Source: Nitrososphaerota archaeon | GTDB lineage: Archaea; Thermoproteota; Nitrososphaeria_A; Caldarchaeales; Calditenuaceae | Length of the DNA: 64,000 nt | Direction: 5' to 3' | NCBI GenBank assembly: GCA_009889515.1 | Contig: WUQR01000139.1 | Location: forward strand, 558,001-622,000 | Shown: piece by piece, positions 51,723 through 53,078 of the stretch | Layout: each line of letters begins with the position of its first letter | Position numbering within the stretch: the stretch's first letter is position 1 | Program-made: the position numbers and the translations under genes | Notes under the pieces: model-generated | What the model was told of the DNA's origin: nothing | What the model saw: only the letters and a program-made list of their open reading frames with translations | The model's database searches: none

Positions 51723-51831
51723 AACATATTGATCAAGAGATGGTTAAAAAGATGCGCATCCGCGGCAATAAGAATAAAATACCAGCCACCGTAACATTAT
51801 CTCGAGAATAGCCCGGTCGTCTAGCGGCCAA

Positions 51832-51862
51832 ACCCCCCAAATGGCCAGACGTGAGGGGCCAA
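51832..51862 (+). other. Non-canonical intron in the D loop of tRNA-Gln
   Basis: A 31-base insertion between GGCCAA (51826-51831) and GGAT (51863-51866). The sequence GGCCAA recurs at 51857-51862, so the exact cut sites can shift within the repeat. CCCC near the 5' side pairs with GGGG (51855-51858) to form the helix. Confidence 0.75.
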
Positions 51863-51878
51863 GGATCCCGGGCTCTGG

Positions 51879-51898
51879 ATCCCTCATGCGGAGGGGAT
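51879..51898 (+). other. Canonical-position intron (37/38) of tRNA-Gln
   Basis: Twenty bases inserted after G37. GGATCCCTC pairs with GAGGGGATCC across a small loop, giving the bulge-helix-bulge shape that the archaeal splicing endonuclease cuts. Removing it restores a seven-base anticodon loop. Confidence 0.8.
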
Positions 51899-51959
51899 CC
51901 CCGGGGACGCCGGTTCGAATCCGGCCCGGGCTACTTTTCTTAGGCTTACGATTTATTAC

Positions 51960-53078
51960 TTGGATGGGCTTACAGCGAGCATAGAAATGTCAGCGCTAGA
52001 GGAGTTCCTGTACCCCGCTCTGGTTTTTTCAATAATTTTAGCCATTGGTTTTGCTGTTAGAAAACTTCTGACGAGGATTATCCGGCATTGGGCAGAGAGG
52101 ACTGAGACTAAGCTTGACGACGTCATACTCGGGGCTATCCGCTCTCCGATAATTCTCTGGTTCTTCGTAGGAGGGATCTATGCGGCGGTTGGTTTAATCC
52201 GTCTTCCCGCCCAGTTTGCCGTGGTTATTGACAGGGGTCTCCTAGCCCTTCTTATACTCTCCATCGCATGGACTGTAGCCAACATAGCTTCGGGGGTGAT
52301 AAAATACTACGGATCCAAGATTGGGGCGGCCATCCAAGTGACTAGTCTGGGGCAGGTCATCACGAAGTTCGCTATCTTATCGCTGGGTATTGTGATAGTC
52401 CTGTCGGAGCTGGGAATAGAGATTACACCACTCGTAGCTTCGCTGGGTATTGGTGCCCTCGCCATAGCCCTGGCTCTCCAAGACACGCTGGCGAACTTCT
52501 TCTCCGGCTTCTACATCTTGGCCGAGAAGTCGATAAGGGTTGGAGACTACATAAGCATCGAGGGTGTGGGCGAGGGAACGGTGGTCGACATAAGCTGGAG
52601 AACAACTAAGATCCAAACGCTTCAAAATAACCTAATAATAATCCCGAACAAGAAGCTTGCCGAGTCGATAGCGACTAACTATGATCTGCCCGAACAGGAG
52701 CTCTCACTCTCCACAACTATAGGTGTTAGCTATGATGAGGATCCCGACAGGGTCGAACAGATACTACTCGACGAGGCGAGCAAAGCGGTCAAGGAGATGG
52801 GCGGGGCAAACCCCGACTTCACTCCACTGATAAGATTCGCGCCTGCAGACTACTCGCTCAATTTTACAGTCATCTGGAGAGCGACTAACGTTAGAGAGCG
52901 TGGTCGACAGATACATGAGATGAATAAGAGGCTTGTCAAAAGACTGAGGGCTGAGGGGATCGAGATACCCTTCCCCGTCAGAACGGTATACATTAGGCAG
53001 GAAAGGGGGCAGAGGCTTAGGGCTGCCTCTAAAAGACCGGCGACTAGAAAGGCGGGGGAAGACTCGAAGGGGGTTTAA
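51960..53078 (+). CDS. MscS-family mechanosensitive channel
   Basis: A 372-residue small-conductance channel protein that opens under membrane tension to release solutes. Four hydrophobic helices (about 17-38, 62-82, 92-113, 130-150) precede the pore helix region LVASLGIGALAIALALQDTL and FFSGFYILAEKSIRVGDYI, the MscS signature. A cytoplasmic beta domain follows and the tail is basic. It uses a TTG start 26 bases after tRNA-Gln. Confidence 0.93.
   Translation: MDGLTASIEMSALEEFLYPALVFSIILAIGFAVRKLLTRIIRHWAERTETKLDDVILGAIRSPIILWFFVGGIYAAVGLIRLPAQFAVVIDRGLLALLILSIAWTVANIASGVIKYYGSKIGAAIQVTSLGQVITKFAILSLGIVIVLSELGIEITPLVASLGIGALAIALALQDTLANFFSGFYILAEKSIRVGDYISIEGVGEGTVVDISWRTTKIQTLQNNLIIIPNKKLAESIATNYDLPEQELSLSTTIGVSYDEDPDRVEQILLDEASKAVKEMGGANPDFTPLIRFAPADYSLNFTVIWRATNVRERGRQIHEMNKRLVKRLRAEGIEIPFPVRTVYIRQERGQRLRAASKRPATRKAGEDSKGV

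Follow-up and report, generated by a model that had tools for sequence, protein, structure and literature searches.

Two predicted introns in a tRNA-Gln(CUG) gene of Caldarchaeales, one with a conserved apical-loop motif

A tRNA-Gln(CUG) gene with two inserts

The 64-kb stretch of DNA analysed here (the window) lies within the 2.1-Mb draft genome of a hot-spring archaeon (G000, contig C139:558001–622000) and contains, at 51810–51933 on the + strand, a tRNA-Gln(CUG) gene carrying two inserts, one of 31 nt in the D-loop (position 21/22) and one a 20-nt intron at position 37/38. Exon 1 (51810–51831, +) holds positions 1–21, that is, the 5′ strands of the acceptor and D-stem and the D-loop GCGGCCAA, as read from the sequence, from a parse of 72 homologs and from an intronless ortholog in a relative (L248). 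The D-loop intron follows (51832–51862, +), and both of its junctions are located by the BHB bulges as well as by the ortholog that has no intron, which reads TCTAGCGGCCAA^GGAT (^ marks a splice junction throughout). At this site the exon strand of the splice helix, a 4-bp H helix identified from pairing counts over 71 genes, is the GGCC at 51826–51829 (+), within a first GGCCAA copy at 51826–51831; the intron strand is the GGCC at 51857–51860 (+), next to the bulge AA^G and within a second GGCCAA copy at 51857–51862. Inside the intron lies an apical-loop motif, here ATGGCCAGA (51841–51849, +), with the consensus CTGGYCAGA over the order. Exon 2 (51863–51878, +) supplies the 3′ strand of the D-stem, the 5′ strand of the anticodon stem and the loop as far as G37, with the anticodon CTG at 51875–51877. 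The canonical intron at 37/38 (51879–51898, +) has an H helix of CTCT (51873–51876) with GGGG (51893–51896), and exon 3 (51899–51933, +) completes the tRNA with the 3′ strand of the anticodon stem, the variable loop, the T-arm, the 3′ strand of the acceptor and the discriminator A.

Upstream of the gene, an A/T-rich block, AATAAGAATAAAATACCAGCC (51768–51788, +), is kept in close relatives (L067, L070 and L071) and is probably an archaeal promoter. Downstream, the protein encoded at 51960–53078, which we take to be MscS-like, is 75–90% identical to proteins at loci of Archaeon HR02, an uncultured archaeon, a Candidatus Calditenuaceae archaeon and a Thermoproteota archaeon, and in each of these relatives the same tRNA precedes the matching segment of the protein by 10–125 nt. 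Judged by these matches and by the shared upstream tRNA, the host is a Calditenuaceae relative within Caldarchaeales, the order formerly called Aigarchaeota (PMC10547907).

Standard gene finders do not recover this gene: in the 64-kb window it was missed by ARAGORN with default settings and by Rfam at the gathering threshold, and a genome-wide Rfam tRNA search returned 44 tRNAs with neither tRNA-Gln among them. A search of the plasmid collection gave no match. ARAGORN names the gene tRNA-Gln(ctg) when both inserts are removed, and tRNA-Gln(ctg) with a 20-nt intron when the D-loop insert alone is removed; with both inserts kept and introns allowed, it returns a wrong tRNA. The original prediction, that removing 31 and 20 bases restores a cloverleaf, is borne out by this call and by five of five anticodon-stem pairs. 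Deleting 31 and 20 nt at other offsets also gave some tRNA-Gln call in 255 of 630 combinations, so the ARAGORN call alone is weak evidence and the argument rests on comparative data.

Homologs and pairing at the D-loop junctions

A second gene with both inserts is present in the same genome: tRNA-Gln(TTG) (C139:510759–510887), located by a T-arm and acceptor scan, has a D-loop insert of 32 nt and a 37/38 intron of 24 nt, and thus provides the second D-loop-interrupted tRNA, of the same architecture, that had been proposed as a check. Pattern searches over 44 genomes of the order and 398 of the phylum, together with targeted fetches, yielded 72 distinct insert-bearing tRNA-Gln genes, which were parsed into exon 1, D-loop intron, exon 2, 37/38 intron and exon 3; many of the patterns demanded an insert (one of them at least 5 bases), so intronless genes are under-counted. 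Caldarchaeales contributes seventy of these genes; the remaining two are L154, which belongs to family f13, and L134, from a genome (G326) that is assigned to a different family. The L134 gene is almost identical to that of G022, within the order, and its contig is perhaps misbinned or its genome misplaced.

The D-loop insert occupies one identical site in all 72 parsed genes, and the spliced reading of every one has five of five anticodon-stem pairs and an ARAGORN Gln call. Across the same site the intronless tRNA-Gln(TTG) of a relative (L248 in G014) reads TCTAGCGGCCAAGGAT, exactly the predicted junction. With these 72 homologs and this ortholog, the predicted coordinates and the reading as a tRNA-Gln(CTG) with D-loop and anticodon-loop introns in a TACK archaeon hold. 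The D-loop intron varies in length from 14 to 39 nt across the homologs, and a single Caldarchaeales gene (L073) has it with the 37/38 intron missing.

Over 71 genes, the D-loop H helix, formed by exon GGYC (18–20a) and intron positions −6 to −3, has 280 standard pairs out of 284, compared with 20 to 213 of 284 in controls in which the partner was slid by 1–4 bases; four genes have one unpaired position each. All 53 genes with C at exon base 20 have G opposite it, and 12 of the 18 with U there have A (Fisher p 1.5e-9 for exon U/intron A versus exon C/intron G, uncorrected for phylogeny). Six double-change cells were counted over 28 distinct rows, a number reached in none of 500 shuffles, likewise uncorrected for relatedness, and families f1, f3 and f4 all show the U-A state, as does every one of the four f1 genera. 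Within the D-loop intron, the h′ stem averages 2.7 bp versus 0.6 bp in shuffled introns, and the outer h helix is not adjacent, giving a relaxed HBh′ form in which 3-nt bulges hold the predicted cut sites. The canonical H helix has four of four pairs in 69 of the 70 homologs that carry the 37/38 intron. Junctions, pairing and covariation can thus be read directly from the aligned genes.

The pairing also bears on the GGCCAA copies that bound the D-loop insert. GGCC is palindromic, that is, its own reverse complement, so that the GGCC of the D-loop pairs with the GGCC near the intron end. In 18 of 71 genes, where the exon reads GGTC, the exact repeat is gone and the pairing is kept, so the conserved thing is the pairing and not the repeat. 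By this comparison, what looks like a repeat consists of both strands of a palindromic splice helix together with bulge As, and it is no evidence for mobility or slippage; the two copies lie where the original prediction placed them, and its suggestion of an intron that moves or slips is not supported. An insert that is a mobile or slippage-made unit between GGCCAA direct repeats is accordingly very unlikely and already largely refuted, even though the repeat is exact in the 51810–51933 gene and intron transposition in Thermoproteales has been published (Fujishima 2010, as cited in PMC4033280). Besides the paired GGTC genes, the two isoacceptors share a single insertion site in almost every genome of the order, by which the insert appears old and vertically kept, and no copy was found at another D-loop among the host genome's other tRNAs.

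It is still less probable, to the point of being barely credible, that the D-loop segment is an enlarged D-loop retained in the mature tRNA rather than an intron. The BHB is not favoured by the folding model, which gives the pre-tRNA a minimum free energy of −58.4 kcal/mol versus −49.9 kcal/mol with cloverleaf and BHB imposed, and the H helix seldom forms in the ensemble; the same model likewise folds neither the mature tRNA nor the intronless ortholog as a cloverleaf, and is therefore uninformative here. Against retention stand the covariation of the splice helix, the 14–39 nt variation in segment length, the existence of the intronless ortholog L248, and the disruption by the insert of the D-loop G18–G19 that tRNAs use for elbow contact.

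Splicing endonuclease and known systems

The host genome contains two splicing-endonuclease genes, alpha (186 aa, counted from the first ATG) and beta (179 aa). The alpha protein matches A. pernix 3p1z at 6.7e-55, with the catalytic His aligned (the residue changed from His to Ala in 3ajv), and its IPKPKGADF aligns with VEKPRGADF of A. pernix, placing a K-P-K loop at the CSL, the Crenarchaea-specific loop Lys-(Pro/Val)-(Lys/Arg) with residues K44, P45 and R46 (PMC12397907). The beta protein aligns to EndA, with Thr at the position of the catalytic His of M. jannaschii EndA. In having two genes, a CSL of the form K-P-(K/R) and a catalytic His in alpha and not in beta, the host enzyme resembles the A. 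pernix (alpha-beta)2 enzyme (3p1z, 3ajv), whereas the beta chain of the host has its closer sequence relatives in EndA of Methanopyrus and Methanocaldococcus, the A. pernix beta chain being more distant. The host enzyme is thus predicted to be of the (alpha-beta)2 type, and it carries the loop associated with broad specificity, in line with the suggestion that the endonuclease type be checked, which returned a two-gene enzyme with a CSL-like K-P-K in the catalytic subunit. Noncanonical introns have been tied to CSL-bearing (alpha-beta)2 enzymes (PMC6379350; PMC12397907), and for D-arm introns of Sulfolobus tokodaii, cleavage as predicted has been shown (PMC4307357).

From these elements we infer cutting, ligation and their order as follows. 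At the D-loop site, exon GGCC would pair with the GGCC of the intron 3′ end as the 4-bp H helix, with AA^A and AA^G as its bulges and a hairpin (h′) within the intron, and at 37/38 a full BHB would form; the (alpha-beta)2 endonuclease would cut at both introns, and a tRNA ligase would join the exons. On the strength of the second gene, the fixed site in 72 genes, the helix covariation, the intronless ortholog, the 72 of 72 Gln calls and the enzyme genes, we hold it to be very probable that this tRNA-Gln(CUG) gene is functional and that its transcript loses both introns through the (alpha-beta)2 endonuclease, a confidence that does not extend to any role of the loop motif.

The account of Candidatus Caldiarchaeum subterraneum, of the same order, reports introns in 13 of 45 tRNAs, three with several, one of these a multi-intron tRNA with anticodon CUG (PMC3293823). 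It prints that tRNA as tRNA-Glu[CUG], evidently Gln; two-intron tRNAs, one of them with anticodon CUG, had thus been reported before, and the kind of gene found at 51810–51933 was already known. That account differs from the present analysis in that the text consulted offers no analysis of the gene's sequence or motifs and is silent on the apical-loop motif and its conservation. Family f13 (L252–L271), which appears to be Thermoproteales-like and Pyrobaculum-like, shares the tRNA-Gln, the point of insertion in the D-loop and the pairing of exon GGCC with intron GGCT or GGCC; its tRNA-Gln genes differ in lacking CUGGYCAGA, in often having no 37/38 intron and in having T-arm introns in some cases.

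The apical-loop motif and other introns

In 68 of 71 D-loop introns, compared with 3.2% of shuffled introns, the loop of the h′ hairpin carries the motif N-GG-Y-Y-R-G-R (matched at the DNA level as GGYYRGR), with the consensus CUGGYCAGA. Per-position figures for the motif are inflated, the motif having been found by the same pattern, which leaves the contrast of 68/71 with 3% unaffected. It is retained even in the 14-nt intron of L086, the positions that flank it hold little information and the rest of the D-loop intron diverges. The motif is missing in L073 (also without the 37/38 intron), L159 and L160, and in family f13 save for one loose match in L154, read as chance; canonical introns of tRNA-Gln have it in 0 of 70 cases. 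Our literature search, to which many subscription papers were closed, turned up no publication that treats the loop motif, and the retention of CUGGYCAGA throughout almost all of the order seems not to have been reported before.

The chances seem evenly balanced that the D-loop intron of Caldarchaeales tRNA-Gln carries, in CUGGYCAGA, a functional element that is bound by a protein or RNA, or makes a tertiary contact in the precursor, and that acts before the intron is removed. Recognition ahead of splicing, whether by a protein, by some other RNA or by the pre-tRNA, would be the likeliest reason for the retention of the motif, a conjecture as likely to fail as to hold. A more specific role is unlikely, namely one in which pairing of the motif to the anticodon loop and to the 5′ splice site at 37/38 (UYUGG^RYC) makes removal of the D-loop intron a precondition for the second cut. 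With one base bulged, every one of the 68 motifs is pairable at each of the seven positions, and L073, the sole Caldarchaeales gene with a D-loop but no 37/38 intron, is without the motif; on the other side, L159 and L160 have the 37/38 intron and no motif, f13 genes with both introns lack it, motif position 7 remains G opposite U34 and not A, and ensemble pairing to the anticodon loop averages 4%. The role is ranked low because 16% of random octamers give a 5-bp run to both anticodon loops. The motif was also considered as antisense to the anticodon loop and rejected, its complementarity being no better than chance.

Just as improbable is that the motif is left over, without function, from duplication of the D-loop, an idea suggested by a resemblance to the exon CGGYCAA, with GGYCA common to the motif and the exon D-loop. 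The chance probability of such a match is ~8%, and near-invariance would not be expected of an inert remnant while flanks and length diverge.

Other introns of these genomes contain related sequences. Among V-arm introns of host-family tRNA-Leu, the heptamer GGCC[AG]GA recurs with no alignable intron bodies; introns starting with GTAGGCCAGA or similar occur in the host (L034, G000:C139:829384–829514) and in L166–L170, L179, L188, L189 and L249–L251, and the heptamer recurs with altered flanks in L168 and L169. These copies were rejected as the same element and kept as a lead only, the match being partly the h′ stem (GCC/GGC) and AGA alone independent. Seventeen canonical tRNA-Gln introns (L087–L101, L074, L075, L133), most of them belonging to tRNA-Gln(TTG) genes of family f4 and of one genus in f2, contain GGCCGC, which is complementary to GCGGCC in the D-loop exon of the same tRNA; pairing between the two is possibly another long-range contact.

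By eye, the host tRNA-Leu(TAA) has a V-arm intron besides its anticodon intron, tRNA-Arg(CCT) (L035, G000:C139:238438–238529) has ~18 nt extra in the variable region, probably an intron, and tRNA-Gly(GCC) (L033, G000:C139:666375–666467), which ARAGORN calls an unknown tRNA, has an intron in the 5′ strand of the anticodon stem (~29/30). Elsewhere, tRNA-Leu(GAG) of G017 and G018 (L164, L165) apparently has three introns (D-loop, 37/38 and V-arm), with an intronless ortholog in G014 (L216), and a small contig of the host bin holds a truncated second tRNA-Tyr-like gene with an intron (L049, G000:C3:1–112), perhaps bin contamination.

To our knowledge, archaeal tRNA introns are mostly regarded as passive, bar the C/D-box guides in tRNA-Trp introns, and selection on a loop sequence inside such an intron would, if true, be unusual. 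The natural series of 14–39 nt introns, along with motif-less and intronless relatives, makes the motif question directly testable in vitro. A tRNA-Gln that standard finders miss or misname means that genomes may appear to be without tRNA-Gln. Across nearly the whole order, both tRNA-Gln would be reliant on noncanonical splicing.
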